A DNA stretch of 64,000 bases, from positions 248,001-312,000 of the forward strand of contig NZ_CP072203.1 of assembly GCF_017654315.1 (NCBI RefSeq). Reading direction: 5' to 3'. The notes under the pieces were generated by a model. The model made no database searches, was not told the origin of the DNA, and saw only the letters and a list, made by a program, of their open reading frames with translations. The translations under genes and the position numbers were made by a program. Numbering within the stretch: the first letter of the stretch is position 1; every line of letters begins with the position of its first letter. Shown piece after piece: positions 7,108 through 63,262 of this stretch. The stretch comes from Gordonia polyisoprenivorans (GTDB lineage: Bacteria > Actinomycetota > Actinomycetes > Mycobacteriales > Mycobacteriaceae).

Positions 7108-8199
7108 ATGGTGGGCACATCGGATCCGGATCGCGGAACACGCATTCGCGGCCAGATCTGGAAGAAGGGCCAGAAGGTCGACGGCTTCTCGATCGACGGC
7201 ATCTCCGATCATCTCGACTGCGCCGACACGCTCATCTGGGCCGATCTCGACTGCCCATCTCACGACGATCTGACAGCGCTGGCACAAGAACTCGACCTCA
7301 ACAGCTTCGCGATCGAGGACACGATCGCCGCCGCCGAACGCGTCAAGACCGTGAACTACCGCGACTACACATTCATGACCGTCTATGCGATCACCGCCGC
7401 CCCGACCGGTGACGACGCGAACCCGTCTGCGGGCGACGAGAACCCGACGACCGGCTACGCAGCGCGTCCGGATCAGCACTCCCCGTATGCGCAACGCGCC
7501 AAGTCGTTTGTTCTGCATCGTGTTTCGATCTTCGTCAAGCAGAACGCGTTAATCACGGTGCGGATGACACCGGGATTCGACATCTCCGTCGTGACCCAGC
7601 GGTGGGAGGAGATCGGCGGCGAACAGTACGGCATCGGCGCGTTGCTTCACGGTCTGCTCGACGTGGTCGTCGACGGACATTTCGACGCGGTCCAACGCCT
7701 CGACAACGACATCGAGGATCTCGAGGCCCTGCTCTTCGACGAGTCCGTCGCCGCCCGAACATTGCAGCGCCGAACCTACGATCTCCGTAAGGATCTCGTG
7801 CTTCTGCGTCGAGTCGTGGTGCCCATGCGCGAGGTCATCGCGGCGATCCAGCGTCACCGCTACGAGAACGAGGCGCCACCGGAACTCGACCCCCACTTCT
7901 CCGACCTCTACGATCACGCGCTGCGGGCGGCGGAGTGGACAGAATCGTTGCGCGACATGGTCACCACGGTGTTCGAGACCAACCTGTCGTTGGCCGACGC
8001 GCGCCTGAACACCGTGATGAAGAAGCTGACGGGGTGGGCCGCGATCATCGCCGTACCCACCGCCATCACCGGTTTCTACGGCCAGAACGTCTCGTTCCCG
8101 TTCTTCCAGACCACCACCGGTTTCGTGGTCAGCTCGGTGTTGATCGTGGTCACCGTGATCGCCCTGTACACCACGTTCAAGCGGCGAGACTGGTTGTAG
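7108..8199 (+). CDS. corA: CorA-family divalent cation transporter
   Basis: This 363-residue protein has the CorA layout: a long N-terminal cytoplasmic funnel (residues 1-300), then two C-terminal membrane helices. The pore signature GFYGQN replaces the classic G-M-N type loop (YGMN), with Gln for Met. The short tail FKRRDWL is typical. It should carry Mg2+ or a related cation as a pentamer. Residues 105-130 (DDANPSAGDENPTTG) are an insertion of low complexity. The stop lies only 39 nt before the a1 arm of the retron RNA on the same strand, so co-transcription is possible. An effector role for CorA is speculation. Confidence 0.9.
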   Translation: MVGTSDPDRGTRIRGQIWKKGQKVDGFSIDGISDHLDCADTLIWADLDCPSHDDLTALAQELDLNSFAIEDTIAAAERVKTVNYRDYTFMTVYAITAAPTGDDANPSAGDENPTTGYAARPDQHSPYAQRAKSFVLHRVSIFVKQNALITVRMTPGFDISVVTQRWEEIGGEQYGIGALLHGLLDVVVDGHFDAVQRLDNDIEDLEALLFDESVAARTLQRRTYDLRKDLVLLRRVVVPMREVIAAIQRHRYENEAPPELDPHFSDLYDHALRAAEWTESLRDMVTTVFETNLSLADARLNTVMKKLTGWAAIIAVPTAITGFYGQNVSFPFFQTTTGFVVSSVLIVVTVIALYTTFKRRDWL

Positions 8200-8238
8200 T
8201 CCGCCACTATGCACGCCGCCCGTGGCACGATGGCTTGT

Positions 8239-8399
8239 GATGGGCGACGGGTGTGGTGAGAGAGGATCGGTTCGATCCGTCTCAGGGGTAACCCCTGGGT
8301 GCAGTTCACAGTTGGGCCCTGCGTCCGACGCCGGCCGGCACGCTGCGCGTGCACCACGGCGCCGCACCATGGTTATGGTCACCACGCCCGTCGTGCATC
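8239..8399 (+). ncRNA. retron msr-msd non-coding RNA (candidate)
   Basis: Two 21-nt arms, 8239-8259 and 8379-8399, are inverted complements. They give 18 Watson-Crick pairs, two G-U pairs and one G-G mismatch; the core CGACGGGTGTGGTGA pairs with TCACCACGCCCGTCG. This matches the a1/a2 arms that enclose msr-msd in retrons. Just inside a1 the RNA reads GAGAGAGG, offering G8260 (or G8258) as branching guanosine. Two perfect small hairpins follow (8260-8283 with loop GTT; CAGGGG-TAA-CCCCTG at 8283-8297), then a weaker one (8297-8326), as in msr. The msd part holds a long hairpin at 8326-8364 with apical GCACGC-TGC-GCGTGC. The RT start is 47 nt after a2. Boundaries are my reading; production of msDNA is not shown. 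Confidence 0.85.
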
Positions 8400-8445
8400 T
8401 TCTGGACGCCCGTGCTCGCTGTGTTCGATGCTGCCGGATCACTCG

Positions 8446-9717
8446 ATGACCGACGCCACTCTGGCTTTCGATCAAGTCCGCGAGCTCGCCGCCGAGTTCT
8501 CGCGGATCTACACCGGATGGACCTGGCCGGAGGTGCTCCGCGCCTTGCGAGCAGTACTCGCCCGGGATCTGGCGGATGCGGTGGCACCCCGCCTGTTCGA
8601 GCTCTCCCCGACCGAACCTCGCCATCCCGAAGCTGTGCTCGTCGAGGCCCTCGCACCGTGGACGTTGCCGCCGCCGGAGCCGCCCCTCATCCTCCGGCCA
8701 CAGGAGCCCCGATCGAGTGGGACTGTGCGGGAAGGACTTCCCGATCTCTACGACGTGACACAGTTGGCGCACTGGCTGGATTTCACCGTGCCAGAACTCG
8801 AGTGGTTTGCCGATCGCGGCGGTTGGCTACGGACTTCGCGACCGCCTTTACGCCACTATCGAATCTGGCGTCGGAGCAAGCGGGACGGCTTTCGGGTGAT
8901 CGAAGCGCCAAAGCCGCGGATGCGCGAAACCCAGCGCCGCCTGCTGCGGCGCCTCGTGGAACACATCCCGGCGCATCCCTGCGCGCGCGGTTTCGTGGCC
9001 GGATCGTCGACCACCGCTTTCGCGTGGCCCCACTCCGATCGACCCGTCGTACTGCGCGCCGACCTCCGACATTGCTTCGAAACCATCACCACTGCCCGGG
9101 TGTGCAGGGTGTTCCATGATGTCGGCTACCCGGCACACATCGCCCGAATCCTTGCCGAACTCTGTACCACTGCAACACCCATCGATGAACTCGGTGGCAT
9201 CGATCTGGCTCATCGTGCGCTGCTGCGCGATCGCCACCTCCCGCAGGGCGCTCCGACGTCACCGCATCTGGCGAACCTCGTGATGCGCGGGCTCGATCGC
9301 CGGCTGGACGGGTACGCCCGTGCCAATGGGCTGCGCTATACCCGATACGGCGACGATCTCGCCCTCTCGGGAGACTCCATGGACGCCGATCGCACGTTGT
9401 GGGTGGTCCTGAAGATCATTGAGGCCGAGGGTTTCACAGCACACCCCGACAAGGTCCGCGTCATGTACCAGCACCAACAGCAACGCCTTGCGGGGTTGGT
9501 GGTCAACGACCGACCCCAGGTCTCACGCGCCTCCTACGACAACCTGCGCGCACTGCTGCACAACGCCGCGGTGCACGGCGCGCAGTCGCAGAATCACACC
9601 AACCATCCCGACTTCCGCGCACACGTGCTCGGACTGATCTCTTGGATCGGTGCCACCAATCCCACGCGCCGCCAACGTCTCCTACAGATGGCCGACGCCG
9701 TCGACTGGGACTCCTGA
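8446..9717 (+). CDS. retron-type reverse transcriptase
   Basis: This 423-residue RNA-directed DNA polymerase has the catalytic Asp of motif A in RADLRHCFETIT (D206). It has QGAPTSPHLANLV (267-279), the form typical of retron RTs, and RYGDDLALSG with YGDD at 301-304. HPCARGFVAGSS (177-188) occupies the position of the retron NAxxH motif. LAGLVVNDRPQVSRASYDNL (348-367) corresponds to region Y, with LAG in place of the usual VTG. LRALLHNAAVHGAQSQNH and HPDFRAHVLGLI resemble the Myxococcus Mx162-like clade. Residues 1-130 form an extension without a recognised domain. ATG at 8446 is chosen because the in-frame upstream stretch overlaps the msr-msd RNA. No partner protein is fused or follows. Confidence 0.92.
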   Translation: MTDATLAFDQVRELAAEFSRIYTGWTWPEVLRALRAVLARDLADAVAPRLFELSPTEPRHPEAVLVEALAPWTLPPPEPPLILRPQEPRSSGTVREGLPDLYDVTQLAHWLDFTVPELEWFADRGGWLRTSRPPLRHYRIWRRSKRDGFRVIEAPKPRMRETQRRLLRRLVEHIPAHPCARGFVAGSSTTAFAWPHSDRPVVLRADLRHCFETITTARVCRVFHDVGYPAHIARILAELCTTATPIDELGGIDLAHRALLRDRHLPQGAPTSPHLANLVMRGLDRRLDGYARANGLRYTRYGDDLALSGDSMDADRTLWVVLKIIEAEGFTAHPDKVRVMYQHQQQRLAGLVVNDRPQVSRASYDNLRALLHNAAVHGAQSQNHTNHPDFRAHVLGLISWIGATNPTRRQRLLQMADAVDWDS

Positions 9718-9756
9718 CGCCGCTCGCCACCTCCCCCGATGCTTGCCCCTTCCCCC

Positions 9757-10150
9757 CGATGGTCGAGGTGCGAGTCGCGTGCGGCGAGCCTCGAGACCGC
9801 TTGCAGTGACGCTGGTTCGGGATCACCGGGTGGTGCGGATGCCTCTCGGCGAGAGGGGTCTCGAGGCTTCGTCGCTGGCGCTCCTCGGCACCTCGACCAT
9901 CGGAGTAGAACGGCTCCTTCCCCCGATGGTCGAGGTGCGAGCCGCGTGCGGCGAGCCTCGAGACCGCCTGCAGCGACGCTGGTTCCAGATCGACGGGTGG
10001 AGCGGATGCCTGTCGGCGAGCGGGGTCTCGAGGCCCGGCGCCTGGGGCGCCGTGCACCTCGACCATCGGATGGGAAGGCCCGGAGCATCATTCGAACATT
10101 TCCCCCGATGGTCGAGGTGCGAGCCGCGTGCGGCGAGCCTCGAGACCCTG
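9757..10150. repeat. five palindromic REP-like units in a tandem mosaic
   Basis: A roughly 42-bp imperfect palindrome beginning CGATGGTCGAGGTGCGAG and ending GAGCCTCGAGACC occurs at about 9757-9798, 9923-9965 and 10106-10147. A reversed variant (GGTCTCGAGG...CACCTCGACCATCG) occurs at 9857-9902 and 10023-10068. The spacers are also repeated: GACGCTGGTTC and CGGATGCCT recur, so the larger unit is about 165-180 bp. The region has no gene and separates the retron RT from the 13E12 remnant. The hairpins could end or attenuate RT transcription. Confidence 0.85.
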
Positions 10151-10500
10151 GTGAGATGACAAGCATCGCAACCACATCCACTACCCACTCGACGAGTTGT
10201 CCACAGATTTCTCGAGCCGTGACCATTGGCGACCGTTCAACCACGCCGACCCCGAGGCCGGTGGGTGGACGGTGCTCGGTGATCTGATCCCGCTGTGTCG
10301 GGCTGATCACCAACGCAAGCATCTTGCCGAATGGGTGCCGACGCTCCTTCTGGATCGGCGGGTGCAGTGGCGGAGCCGGCGGACGGGGCAGGTGATTGTT
10401 ACGTATCCGCGGTGACGGTCTCTATGTTCGTGGGGTGGAACCAGATGTGGCTCACCAGGTCTCGAGGCTCCTCGCTAGCGCTCGTCGCACCTCGACCACC
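10106..10500 (+). mobile_element. internally deleted 13E12-type element (MITE-like derivative)
   Basis: The 395-bp segment keeps both ends of the element at 49314-51278, in opposite orientation, but lacks about 1.57 kb of its interior. The left end carries the palindrome and then GGTGAGATGACAAGC and CACATCCACTACCCACTCGA, matching the region upstream of the full-length gene. The right end has GGGGTGGAACCAG, CTCACC and GGTCTCGAGG, matching the region after the full-length stop. Both ends are thus the same inverted palindromes. This is the structure expected of a non-autonomous derivative, or alternatively of a decayed duplicate. Confidence 0.7.
10216..10415 (+). pseudogene. C-terminal remnant of DUF222/HNH (13E12) gene
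   Basis: The reading frame encodes DHWRPFNHADPEAGGWTVLG, LIPLCRADHQRKHLAEWVPT and ends RRTGQVIVTYPR. It is nearly identical to the last 65 residues of the HNH protein at 49396-51051. The N-terminal DUF222 part and the first HNH cysteines are missing. A frame opens upstream at 10197 by chance across the deletion junction (near 10215). It should be non-functional. Confidence 0.85.
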
Positions 10501-10618
10501 ATGAAAATGCACCTCGACCACCAGGAAACGGCACCTCGACCATCGGGGGGAAAGTCCTTGACCATGGGGGAAGGGTTCTCGACCATCTGGAGGGGGAGGG
10601 TCCTCGACCACCGAGGCG
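10456..10618. repeat. REP-like palindrome with degenerate partial copies
   Basis: One reversed palindrome (GGTCTCGAGGCTCCTCGC...CACCTCGACCACC, about 10458-10500) is followed by a chain of short fragments of its right arm. CACCTCGACCA or CTCGACCA recurs about four times between 10500 and 10612, each followed by a G- or A-rich tract. No gene is present. The fragments look like repeated partial duplication of the repeat end. Confidence 0.75.
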
Positions 10619-11845
10619 TCAGATCCCCATCACTTCGCGATAGTGGGCGTATGCACCGGCCACCTCGTCTTCGGTGAGACCGAACTCTTCGAGGGAATAG
10701 CGGTGCACGCCATGGGCATTCTGTTGATGGGATTGTCGGTGCCGATGCATGGCGGCACGGGTCGGGCCGTCGAGTTCCAGGCCGGCGGCGCAGTAGATCC
10801 GGTCGATCTGCGCCATCGGGTCGGCAATGAGGTCGTCGTACCGCACGTCGACGAATCGATCCGGATGGTGTTGGCGTACAACGAGCGCCCGTTCGGTCAT
10901 GTCGACGTTGCGGCGCAACCAATGTCGCGCGACGGCAGCGGCATCGACGGAGTCGGAGAACATCGAATGGCCGTGAGCGAGCATGCTCGAGAACGAGGCT
11001 GTGGTGCGCACCGGGTCGCGGTGAGTGTTGACGATGACCGCGTCGGGAAACACGTCGAGCAGCGTGTCGAGATGCTCCAGATGTGCGGGCGTCTTGAGCA
11101 CCCAGTGCAGTCGTCGGTCCTGCTGCGCGAGTACCTGCAACAGCACCTTCAGATACTCGTACGACGGTCGGGCGTCCTGGCGCGCCAACCACTCGGCATA
11201 CGCAGGTACGTTCAGCATCGCCTCCGGCACCTGGGATAACAGTGAATACTCCTGCAGCAGAACATCTTCCTCCGGACCGTCGGCCTCGACGGCGTGGATA
11301 GCGAAGAACTGCGGGTTCAGGTATCGCAGGGCGAGTTCGGCGAGCTTGGTTTGTGCGATCCGCACCCGTGGCCGTGCATCTGCCCGCTCCCATCGGCTTG
11401 GCAGCAGGTGTACCACTTCCCACGATTGCACCGCGCGCATCCTCGGATCGGCGCCGATCAGCCTGTGCAACATGGTGGTTCCACTGCGCTGAAGGCCGGC
11501 GATCACGATCGGTGGGGTGATCGGCTCGTCGAGTATTTCGGGCTCGGCCTCCAGCAGTGCGGCCACCCGCAGACGCGTCGTGAGCAGACCGTGCAGGCGT
11601 GCGCGAATCACCAGCGCCCCGAAATAGTTGAGGTTCGCCTCGTCGACAATCGAACGGGTCAACACATCGAGAGCTTCGTCGGTCAGCGCGTCGGCTTCCC
11701 ATGCCCGCCTCGCCGACTTCTCAGCACGCCGCCGCAACGCGTCGGCGGACAGATCCGGCCCGAGACCGCGTCGAACCAGCTCGGCACCAACATGATTGAG
11801 CACTCGGATACCGCGTCGCCGAAACGGCTCGAATCCGTCAGACAT
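10619..11845 (-). CDS. sulfotransferase family protein
   Basis: This 408-residue protein carries GLQRSGTTMLHRLI (117-130), the 5'-phosphosulfate-binding loop of PAPS-dependent sulfotransferases. IVNTHRDPVRTTASFSSM is the 3'-phosphate-binding segment (HRDP with a downstream Ser). RYDDLIADPMAQIDRIY is the usual C-terminal strand. Mycolate actinobacteria have many such proteins acting on lipids or small molecules; the acceptor is unknown. It lies 15 bp downstream of the DUF1214 gene on the same strand, so the pair is probably one operon. The start at the ATG of MSDGFEPF is consistent with this spacing. Confidence 0.88.
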   Translation of the reverse strand: MSDGFEPFRRRGIRVLNHVGAELVRRGLGPDLSADALRRRAEKSARRAWEADALTDEALDVLTRSIVDEANLNYFGALVIRARLHGLLTTRLRVAALLEAEPEILDEPITPPIVIAGLQRSGTTMLHRLIGADPRMRAVQSWEVVHLLPSRWERADARPRVRIAQTKLAELALRYLNPQFFAIHAVEADGPEEDVLLQEYSLLSQVPEAMLNVPAYAEWLARQDARPSYEYLKVLLQVLAQQDRRLHWVLKTPAHLEHLDTLLDVFPDAVIVNTHRDPVRTTASFSSMLAHGHSMFSDSVDAAAVARHWLRRNVDMTERALVVRQHHPDRFVDVRYDDLIADPMAQIDRIYCAAGLELDGPTRAAMHRHRQSHQQNAHGVHRYSLEEFGLTEDEVAGAYAHYREVMGI

Positions 11846-34460: not shown

Positions 34461-34625
34461 GGTCTCGAGGGTCGGCGCCAGGGGCGCCTCCCACCTCGAC
34501 CATCGGGTGGGGCCTTTCATCGGTGGTCGAGGTGACCGATACGGCACCGGCGGCAACTCTTCTGATCGATGGTCGAGGTGCGAGGCGCGTGCGCCGAGCC
34601 TCGAGACCCCCTGCCACGGCGCTGG
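34461..34625. repeat. REP-like palindromes, inverted pair
   Basis: A reversed copy (GGTCTCGAGGGTCGGCGCC...CACCTCGACCATCG, 34461-34505) and a forward copy (CGATGGTCGAGGTGCGAGGC...CCTCGAGACC, 34567-34608) face each other. A partial right arm GGTGGTCGAGGTGACC lies between them (about 34522-34535). The tail GGCGCTGGTTTCACCACC after the forward copy is shared with the copy at 63240. The pair fills the gap between the secreted-protein gene and the kinase. Confidence 0.85.
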
Positions 34626-49380: not shown

Positions 49381-51278
49381 CACAGCGGAATTCCGTCACC
49401 GCGGATAGGTGACAATCACCTGCCCCGTCCGACGGTTCCGCCACTCCACCCGCCGATCGGTGTAGAGCGTCGGCACCCACTCCGCGAGATGTTTGCGTTG
49501 GTGATCAGCCCGACACAACGGGATGAGGTCACCGAGCACAGTCCACCCTCCCGCCTGGGGGTCGGCATGGTTAAAGGGCCGCCAGTGGTCGAGGTCGCAC
49601 AGGTGTGACGGCATACCGCAGTAGGGGTATCGGCACCAGGCGTCGTTGGCGAGCACCTCAGCGCGCAGTGTGGCGCTGGGTGCATAGGTCAATGCCCCAG
49701 GGGGTGGCACGGTGTGACCGCCGTGTCCGGTCGGATCCGCCGGCGGCGCCTGGGGTCGGTCGGAGATCTGCGGGATGAGTGGTCCGGCGGTACGTGCGGA
49801 TTTGGGGTAGTGGATGGTTTTCGCTACGTCGGCGAGGGTGGTGGCGTAGCTGGGGTCGATGGGACCGTATCCCTGCAGGCGTGTCACCAGCTCACCGTCG
49901 GGATCTTTCAGGACCGTCAGTACGGGTGCACTGGGTACGACCAGGGCACGTCCGAACGCCACCGGCACCTCATCCGTGGTTGGCTCATCCAGGGGGTCGG
50001 GGATCTCGGGTTCGACGACCGGCTCCACCACATCGACAGGTTCCTGCGCCTGCGCATTGGCAGGTTCCGGCGCACTGGAAGGTTCGATGTCCTCGAGTTC
50101 GGGCACATCGGCGTCGGCGGGTTCGGGTAGCAGGTCGTCCCACGCTGCCGCGTCCTGGGCGTCGGCGGGAGTTTCGGCGGAGTCGTTCCTGTTGCCAGCA
50201 CGGCCCTTGGCGCAATCGGCCAAGCCGCATTGGCAGTCGAGGTGGGCTCCGGGGACGCCGGTGATCTCCCCGAGGGCGATCACCCGCAGCGATCCCACGC
50301 GGCGGGGGTCCTTGCGGCAGGTACGTTCGTCAACGAGGGCGTTGATCTGCGTCGTGAGAAACACCCCGTAATGGGCGGGCACAACCGCATCCAGAGAGGA
50401 GTGCCCCGCAACATCGGGGGTGATGGTCACGTTCCCCACCAGGTCGGTGATGGTCTCACGGTCCTCGATAACGCTGTCGGGGTTCATCGAGATCAAGGCG
50501 GCGTCGAGTTGTTGCGACAGCACCGGGTCGGTGGTGGCGCGGGATCCGTAGTCCAGGACGATCTCCTCGAACGTCATCTCCTCGTTGTCACCGGACTCGT
50601 CACCGGTATCGACGCTGTCGCTGTCGCTGTCGGTGGTGTCGGTGTCGCTGCCGCGTTGGGCGGCGCGCGCCATGATCGAAGCCCGATTCGTGGAGAGCTC
50701 TCCATTCAGGTAGGCGGCACGGATCAGCGGTAGCTTCTCCAGGAGGTCCGCCAGCGCTATCCAACTCCCGGCTTTGCTACGGGAGATCTTGAACTGCAAC
50801 GATACTTCGGCCCGGCCGAGTCTCTCGGCATGCTCGACGACCGAACCCCACACACCGGTCTCGGGCCGATCGGCGAGATGCTCGTGAAATACCCGCTCTG
50901 CCAGCTCGGCGGCAGCCAGCACTGTCCGGGCTTCGTATTTGCGGGACTCGCGTAGCAGGTCCGGGCCGGTTTCGGTGAGCTCATCGCGGGTCATGGCTGT
51001 GATCGCGGCAGCATCGGCATTTGGATCGGTGAACGTCAACGTGGTCGACACCAGATACCTCCCCTCCCGCGATCGGACTTGATGAGAACAAGTGTACGAA
51101 GGGATACCGACAAAACCGGTCCGATGATCGCCAGACCGGAGAAATCTGTGGACAACTTCTTTCGGGCGCGTCGACTGGGCGCTCAATCACGTCGAGTGGG
51201 TAGTGGATGTGGTTGCAATGCTTGCCATCTCACCAGGGTCTCGAGGCTCGCCGCACGCGGCTCGCACCTCGACCATCG
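49314..51278 (-). mobile_element. 13E12-type element bounded by REP-like inverted repeats
   Basis: The segment of about 1,965 bp is bordered by imperfect inverted repeats of about 50 bp: 49314-49362 (plus strand, CGATGGTCGAGGTG...GAGACCCGGTGAG) and 51229-51278 (inverted, CTCACCAGGGTCTCGAGG...CCATCG). It contains one gene (DUF222/HNH). A second locus, 10106-10500, keeps the same ends and lacks the middle. Mobility is inferred from this comparison. REP13E12 elements of mycobacteria are the known analogue. No target-site duplication was identified because the ends merge into further palindromes. Confidence 0.6.
49396..51051 (-). CDS. DUF222 and HNH endonuclease domain protein (13E12 repeat family)
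   Basis: This 551-residue protein has an N-terminal DUF222 region (ELAERVFHEHLADRPETGVW, SLQFKISRSKAGSWIALADL), a Pro/Glu/Asp-rich variable linker (about 300-420) and a C-terminal HNH domain. In the HNH domain CRYPYCGMPSHLCDLDHWRP supplies the metal cysteines and catalytic DH, followed by LIPLCRADHQRKH. GTG at 51051 has GGGGAGG 6-8 nt upstream. The 13E12 family is multicopy in mycolate actinobacteria and its cleavage target is unknown. A truncated second copy lies at 10216-10415. Confidence 0.9.
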   Translation of the reverse strand: MSTTLTFTDPNADAAAITAMTRDELTETGPDLLRESRKYEARTVLAAAELAERVFHEHLADRPETGVWGSVVEHAERLGRAEVSLQFKISRSKAGSWIALADLLEKLPLIRAAYLNGELSTNRASIMARAAQRGSDTDTTDSDSDSVDTGDESGDNEEMTFEEIVLDYGSRATTDPVLSQQLDAALISMNPDSVIEDRETITDLVGNVTITPDVAGHSSLDAVVPAHYGVFLTTQINALVDERTCRKDPRRVGSLRVIALGEITGVPGAHLDCQCGLADCAKGRAGNRNDSAETPADAQDAAAWDDLLPEPADADVPELEDIEPSSAPEPANAQAQEPVDVVEPVVEPEIPDPLDEPTTDEVPVAFGRALVVPSAPVLTVLKDPDGELVTRLQGYGPIDPSYATTLADVAKTIHYPKSARTAGPLIPQISDRPQAPPADPTGHGGHTVPPPGALTYAPSATLRAEVLANDAWCRYPYCGMPSHLCDLDHWRPFNHADPQAGGWTVLGDLIPLCRADHQRKHLAEWVPTLYTDRRVEWRNRRTGQVIVTYPR

Positions 51279-51540
51279 GGAGGAAGGAAGCGCTCGACGA
51301 TCAGGGGACGAGCAAACATCCGGGGGGATGGAGGCGCTCGACCATCGATCTGAGGTGACCGAATGATGCTCCGGGTCTTTCCATCCGATGGTCGAGGTGC
51401 CGAGGAGCGCCAGCGACGAGCCTCGAGACCCCGCTCGCCGATCATTGTTCGCATCTCCCGTCGAACTGAACCAGCACCGGCGCAAGCGGTCTCGAGGCTC
51501 GCCGCACGCGGCTCGCACCTCGACCACCGGGGGAAGGGTC
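51236..51540. repeat. REP-like palindromes, three copies
   Basis: Copies occur at 51236-51278 (reversed), 51386-51430 (forward, with centre GCCGAGGAGCGCCAGCGACG) and 51487-51530 (reversed). Spacers match those of the 9757-10150 block: CATCCGATGG with CCGGGTC and CATCATTCG, and the tail CCGGTGCTGGTTCAG in inverted order. This 300-bp stretch therefore belongs to the same mosaic. Together with 51052-51235 it fills the gene-free gap between the HNH gene and the membrane protein at 51577. Confidence 0.85.
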
Positions 51541-62796: not shown

Positions 62797-63262
62797 TTCG
62801 GCACAAGAGGTCTCGAGGCTCCTCGCTAGCGCTCGTCGACACCTCGACCACCGTATGGAAGCCGTCCCCCTCTCGATGGTCGAGGTGCGAGGCGCATGCG
62901 CCGAGCCTCGAGACCACCGTCACCGGTACTGTTTTCGACCCACCGTGGCCTGGAAACCCTTCAGCACAAGAGGTCTCGAGGCTCCTCGCTAGCGCTCGTC
63001 GGCACCTCGACCACCGTATGGAAGCCGTCCCCCTACCGATGGTCGAGGTGCGAGGCGTGCGCGCCGAGCCTCGAGACCACCGTCACCGGTGCTGGTTTCG
63101 ACCCACCGTGGCCCGGAAACCCTTCAGCACAAGAGGTCTCGAGGCTCCTCGCTAGCGCTCGTCGGCACCTCGACCACCGTATGGAAGCCGTCCCCCTACC
63201 GATGGTCGAGGTGCGAGGCGCACGCGCCGAGCCTCGAGACCGCCTGCTACAGGGCTGGTTTC
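62797..63262. repeat. 163-bp tandem repeat array built from REP-like palindromes
   Basis: Three tandem units start at about 62797, 62960 and 63123. The distance between successive GGTCTCGAGG boxes (62809, 62972, 63135) is exactly 163 bp. Each unit holds a reversed palindrome (centre CGCTAGCGCTCGT), a spacer TATGGAAGCCGTCCCCCT, and a forward palindrome. A tail ACCGTCACCGGTGCTGGTTT and CCTTCAGCACAAG complete it. The last unit is cut after the forward palindrome. It lies between two crt genes that converge and may form transcription-stopping hairpins for both. Confidence 0.9.

Follow-up and report, generated by a model that had tools for sequence, protein, structure and literature searches.

Does a small structured RNA that precedes a reverse transcriptase (RT) gene in Gordonia polyisoprenivorans form a complete retron with it, and if so, what might such a unit do? 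Retrons are bacterial units that copy a small structured RNA into DNA, and they are usually linked to defence against viruses. We analysed a 64,000-nt stretch (hereafter the window) comprising bases 248001-312000 of a single-contig 6.03-Mb genome, in which an initial annotation made from the letters alone had proposed a complete actinobacterial retron with an msr-msd RNA and an RT. The anatomy of the RNA, its covariation in relatives and the clade of the RT support that proposal, and we place the probability that the locus is a complete retron at about 0.85.

The RNA is bounded by two arms, a1 and a2 (Table 1), which had been said to pair over 21 nt with one mismatch. Direct reading agrees: 20 of the 21 positions are paired, two of them as G-U wobbles, and the mismatch is G-G. 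Between the arms lie two msr hairpins and a single msd stem-loop, in line with the one to three msr hairpins followed by an msd stem-loop that characterize retrons. The proposed msr-msd-RT order holds, and the retron-type RT, the 3-nt loop of an msr hairpin and the predicted priming-guanosine junction are all consistent with it. The element does lie upstream of the RT, at a spacing of 46 nt between a2 and the ATG at 8446 rather than the 47 nt first given. Folding of 8239-8399, which the initial annotation had proposed as a check, gave -94.3 kcal/mol for the 161-nt RNA compared with -70.8 +/- 4.3 in 200 shuffles (z -5.44), none of which folded as well; the RNA had no match in Rfam. Inverted repeats are common in the window, with 49 arm pairs of at least 17 nt within 250 nt, many of them from a dispersed repeat, and the a1/a2 pair is not among the 25 of these that were listed. 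An inverted repeat alone is therefore unremarkable here, and it is the comparative evidence that makes a1/a2 real.

That evidence came from a search with the RT protein, which had matches in 42 of 121 related genomes and in 26 named loci from Gordonia, Rhodococcus, Dietzia, Williamsia, Nocardia, Tsukamurella, Hoyosella and Nocardioides. Removal of 8 duplicates gave 48 distinct loci. A simple pattern search found a GGGG-N3-CCCC hairpin upstream of the RT in 43 of the 48, the five others being Tsukamurella loci. In a MAFFT alignment of the 27 closer loci, changes on both sides were seen in 18 of 47 pairs, including 12 of the 20 a1/a2 pairs, a level reached by 0 of 500 shuffles and 0 of 6 slid versions. 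When a covariance model trained on these 27 loci was applied to the 21 left out, it recovered the RNA, again upstream of the RT, in 20 (E <= 1.2e-5), among them all five from Tsukamurella; in all, 47 of the 48 distinct loci, 27 of them the training set, have a match in this position. When the 47 were aligned to the model, an alignment that leans towards it, 37 of 47 pairs were compensated (18 of 20 in a1/a2) and paired cells made up 95.2%, versus 33.7-48.5% when slid. The initial annotation had staked its reading on covariation of the arms among homologues, which both alignments provide. Compensatory changes also occur in both msr hairpins and in the msd stem-loop, including 5 of 10 pairs of msr hairpin 2 in the 47-locus alignment; in Tsukamurella this kind of change is seen as an msr stem of CAGCGG/CCGCUG in place of CAGGGG/CCCCUG, a swap that preserves the pair. 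G-U cells outnumber A-C cells by 124 to 31 (46 to 19 in a1/a2), an excess that identifies the + strand as the working RNA. A structured msr-msd RNA closed by a1 and a2 is thus found upstream of the RT, as in known retrons.

The RNA and the RT also occur together. Across the 121 genomes, the RNA model matched 28, once in each, and 28 of 28 also carry the RT; within the genus, RNA and RT were found in the identical 22 of 59 genomes.

Without exception among the 47 loci, a1 ends in a G-C and an A-U pair followed by G, and GG precedes a2; the predicted priming site, GAG after a1 and GGUC into a2, is invariant. In described retrons the priming G is found within the inner end of a1 or immediately 3' of it, the contexts being TAGC, CAGA, CAGC, GAGC or ACGC (PMC6868368). 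A guanosine conserved in 47 of 47 loci occupies this end of a1 here, and the GAGA around 8260 is close to CAGA and GAGC; we infer that G8260 is the primer and G8378 the first template base. The same junction bears on a different explanation, that the RNA is a structured leader of the RT gene (an attenuator or translational control element) that is not copied, with the RT acting elsewhere. Like a leader, the RNA sits just upstream of the RT and in line with it in the loci examined. Against a leader, there are invariant bases at the a1/a2 junction, the distance from a2 to the RT start varies among loci and a scan found no terminator-like site; this explanation is very unlikely.

Upstream of the RNA, TGGCACGAT resembles an extended -10 element and is predicted to start transcription about at a1. 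The pattern TGN[CT]ANNNT was present in 27 of the 47 loci and TANNNT in 13 more (<=16 nt upstream of the RNA model start), compared with a promoter pattern in 1.8% of 1880 control windows. A generic promoter scan found no promoter at the locus, and no -35 element was defined.

Table 1 Features of the Gordonia retron locus, in window coordinates
Feature	Position	Strand	Basis or remark
Presence/absence unit (promoter, non-coding RNA and RT), discrete, ~1.5 kb	8213..9741	+	homology break in related genome G034
Extended -10 promoter element, TGGCACGAT	8223..8231	+	predicted start site about at a1 5' end
a1 arm, GATGGGCGACGGGTGTGGTGA	8239..8259	+	pairs with 8379-8399; covariation in relatives
Predicted priming (branching) guanosine, GAGA context	8260	+	invariant 47/47; first residue past a1; putative role
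msr hairpin 1	8264..8278	+	4/5 modelled pairs compensated (47 sequences)
msr hairpin 2: 8-bp stem, 3-nt loop (CTCAGGGG-TAA-CCCCTGGG), plus 2 more pairs	8279..8302	+	
msd stem-loop: 7 outer pairs, 5 inner pairs	8326..8364	+	helices 4 and 5: 10/12 pairs compensated
GG adjoining a2, predicted first template bases for complementary DNA (cDNA)	8377..8378	+	invariant 47/47; putative role
a2 arm, TCACCACGCCCGTCGTGCATC	8379..8399	+	pairing with a1, fold, covariation
Retron-type RT, 423 amino acids	8446..9717	+	LPQGAPTSP and YGDD present
RT N-terminal four-helix domain, ~residues 1-75	8446..8670	+	AlphaFold predicted local distance difference test (pLDDT) mostly >90

The RT itself is of retron type. 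The QGAPTSP and YGDD motifs on which the initial annotation had relied were both read in its open reading frame (ORF), and the solved structures nearest to the protein, in sequence as well as in predicted fold, are those of retron RTs. Among PADLOC models, RT_other (576.5 bits) and RT_outgroup (550.7 bits) match nearly end-to-end, and no numbered retron type fits best, the highest being RT_XIII with 301 bits over residues 91-418; together, the PADLOC, sequence and fold comparisons place the protein in the retron clade. The nearest named relative found is Gordonia oryzae (96%), in keeping with an actinobacterial retron. Of the 121 genomes, 15 have a match to the N-terminal helical domain, in every case within an RT ORF, and structure searches gave this domain no clear fold match, a result compatible with an effector role. 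We also considered a defence-associated RT (DRT) system of the unknown-group or Abi-like kind, in which an RT and a non-coding RNA (ncRNA) would use another mode of priming and the product would be the effector. Retron RTs score far higher than these by sequence and by fold, the NCBIfam Drt2 model reaches 35.5 bits against a cut-off of 390, and the arrangement seen here, an a1/a2 closing stem and an invariant G immediately within it, is that of retron priming; a DRT system is accordingly quite unlikely.

If the locus is a retron, a promoter just upstream would give one transcript from about 8239 that covers the RT as well as the msr-msd RNA. The RNA would be closed by its a1 and a2 arms, and the RT would bind the msr, most likely at the 8-bp, 3-nt-loop hairpin, prime from the 2'-OH of G8260 and copy from G8378 leftwards through the msd stem-loop. 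The predicted product, a multicopy single-stranded DNA (msDNA), would be a branched RNA-DNA molecule with very roughly 50-75 nt of DNA.

The retron is a discrete unit that relocates. In the window it is flanked by a CorA-like transporter gene (ending at 8199) and an opposite-strand sulfotransferase gene (10619-11845). The related genome G034 carries corA (98%) and the sulfotransferase gene (96%) and has no RT match; its homology to the window ends at 8212 and restarts in repeat copies from 9741 on, and the right edge of the unit is uncertain because the repeat has several copies. In the 22 retron-bearing genomes of the genus, several of them draft assemblies, corA is adjacent to the retron in 2 (G000, G001); in 13 it is at least 12 kb distant or on a different contig, and in 7 it has no match. 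RNA and RT were also found on one Dietzia plasmid, adjoining merA, and between polA and rpsA on a Tsukamurella replicon labelled as a plasmid. The draft Tsukamurella loci presumably share these polA/rpsA surroundings, so the plasmid label is open to question. In an RT tree of 29 rows, grouping is mostly by genus, and inheritance with loss and relocation is therefore as good a fit as transfer. Truncated or stop-containing RT copies occur in G006, G035 and G068. In a sample of 296 genomes of the phylum, RT_outgroup matched 3 at E <= 1e-40, including the window's own, among the matches listed and with at most five candidates scored per genome, and the RT clade looks rare outside a few families.

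Relatives were also found in Burkholderia, in which three RTs with 43% identity to the window RT are preceded by a closing stem, a GGGG-CUA-CCCC hairpin and an msd-like stem-loop, the same plan as in the Gordonia RNA. In these RNAs (L158 3440-3665, L160 and L161) the first arm is followed by CAAGC, and the AAGC at the junction comes nearer to the classical AGC priming motif. The covariance model gave no credible match in the one Burkholderia locus searched; common descent of the Burkholderia and actinobacterial RNAs is likely.

Further observations concern the insertion site and the wider family. A dispersed, GC-rich repeat, CCCCCGATGGTCGAGGTGCGAGCCGCGTGCGGCGAGCCTCGAGACC, follows the RT immediately in three direct copies (window 9751-10147) and has related inverted arms at about 34484-34588, 51236-51510 and 62809-63246; the retron-free site in G034 has its right edge within this repeat. 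Between repeat and sulfotransferase gene, G034 carries extra sequence (up to L072 3219), which we take to be an HNH/DUF222-like gene and of whose 3' part the window retains only a fragment (87% over 301 nt, window 10221-10520); the site is therefore variable in more than one way. One genus contains two diverged lineages of this retron, with best RT segment identities to the window's of 46-50% (L021-L023 and L025-L027) and 61-96% (L005-L012 and L014-L019). A second RT in the window's genome (G000:C1:2449329-2449965), seen as two neighbouring RVT_1 matches in different open frames, is possibly a group II intron RT. Among 14 control genomes, the RT_outgroup model also matches Methanosarcina acetivorans.

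Several observations count against a complete retron. NCBIfam retron models remain under their cut-offs, the best being the St85 family (156 versus 235). Region Y reads LAG rather than VTG, its L and G being invariant in 66 aligned proteins; VTG is itself present in only 47% of retron-clade RTs, I or L taking the first place in 26% (PMC4244168). Region X, FAWPH, lacks the N of NAXXH, and its H is invariant in the 66 proteins and its A in the consensus; the frequencies of H, A and N in retron RTs are 100%, 87% and 62% (PMC4244168). The priming context is GAG[A/G] instead of the usual TAGC, and the msd stem is short and interrupted, its 12 modelled pairs being at the low end of the described 10-50 bp; msr hairpin 1 is also short, with 5-6 bp, where msr hairpins typically have stems of ~7-10 bp and loops of 3-10 nt (PMC6868368). 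Nocardioides L056 was missed by the RNA model (partial match only, E 0.45), RNA scores drop to 40-65 bits in more distant families and 7 of 47 loci have neither promoter pattern. The RT was found without an RNA match in 14 genomes, one in the family, with a broken RT fragment (G068), and 13 from other families of the order, in a whole-genome search with strict filters; four RT-bearing genomes without such a match (G075, G082, G090 and G110) gave weak RNA matches when their loci were searched directly. Finally, no linked effector was found: among 29 loci compared with RT and ncRNA masked (ORFs of at least 50 amino acids), no neighbour was consistently common across genera, and the ten retron neighbours in the window include no defence genes and no PADLOC match.

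Of 406 locus pairs, 25 share any neighbouring ORF, 21 of them within a genus, and the other 4 share different ORFs at unrelated positions. Short ORFs in the 700 nt downstream of the RT have counterparts solely in loci of the same genus, and of the ten genes around the retron in the window, those with a recognizable function serve metabolism or transport. On this evidence the locus appears to be a retron that stands alone, its RT bearing an N-terminal helical domain without a match. A true retron that serves housekeeping, stress or selfish maintenance rather than phage defence, or that relies on an unlinked host effector, would fit these neighbourhoods, in which no neighbour is consistently common across genera and metabolic and transport genes predominate in the window, as well as the patchy presence in 22 of 59 genomes with decayed copies; we consider this a serious contender, at somewhat under an even chance. 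Patchy, relocating units are, by contrast, typical of defence genes. Retrons have been described as bacterial immune systems (PMC12548924). Because no linked effector was found, the defence reading rests on analogy; on that footing, defence is the likeliest function, and we lean slightly towards phage defence without a linked effector gene, acting through the RT N-terminal domain, the reverse-transcribed DNA (RT-DNA) itself or an unlinked host protein. More tentatively, and with rather less confidence, the loci may represent an effector-free, two-part retron class of ncRNA and RT with its own N-terminal helical domain, in which RT-DNA or that domain alone replaces a separate toxin, forming a mobile 1.5-kb cassette on actinobacterial chromosomes and plasmids that reaches Burkholderia.

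According to a 2019 review, msDNA had been isolated from Alpha-, Delta- and Gammaproteobacteria, and Actinobacteria were represented only by bioinformatic predictions (PMC6868368); one study of retron editing in the phylum drew its retrons from an earlier census that had been tested in E. coli (PMC12262390). The present analysis adds, for an actinobacterial clade that has no numbered PADLOC type, an ncRNA backed by covariation, a predicted priming residue and a minimal unit of 1.5 kb. Novelty is claimed provisionally, as the RT clade is already in PADLOC, retrons were predicted earlier in Actinobacteria and PADLOC msr-msd models exist. The question of what effector-free retrons do becomes directly testable, and DNA-production tools could draw on a retron that is native to high-GC Gram-positives.

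Unlike typed retrons, the Gordonia retron has no linked effector, and it departs from them in the motifs at the junction and in region Y. Its RT belongs to a clade that the PADLOC library holds as RT_other and RT_outgroup and to which it gives no numbered type. Type XIII is the best numbered type, yet RT_XIII scores about half as high as RT_other and leaves the N-terminal part of the Gordonia RT uncovered, and the 29 loci revealed no common neighbour genes. Ec86 (Eco1) has a separate effector, as the title of 7v9x indicates, whereas none is linked in Gordonia, and its VTG and the usual TAGC are replaced by LAG and GAG[A/G]. Hairpin 2 of the Gordonia msr, in turn, resembles the RT-binding stem described for Ec86 and Ec73 (PMC6868368). 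Mx162 makes 162 nt of DNA (PMC6868368), whereas the stretch available in Gordonia would be ~75 nt. Mx162 and Mx65 nevertheless share with the Gordonia retron an RT with an N-terminal extension, and their GAGC or CAGC at the priming G (PMC6868368) resembles its GAGA.
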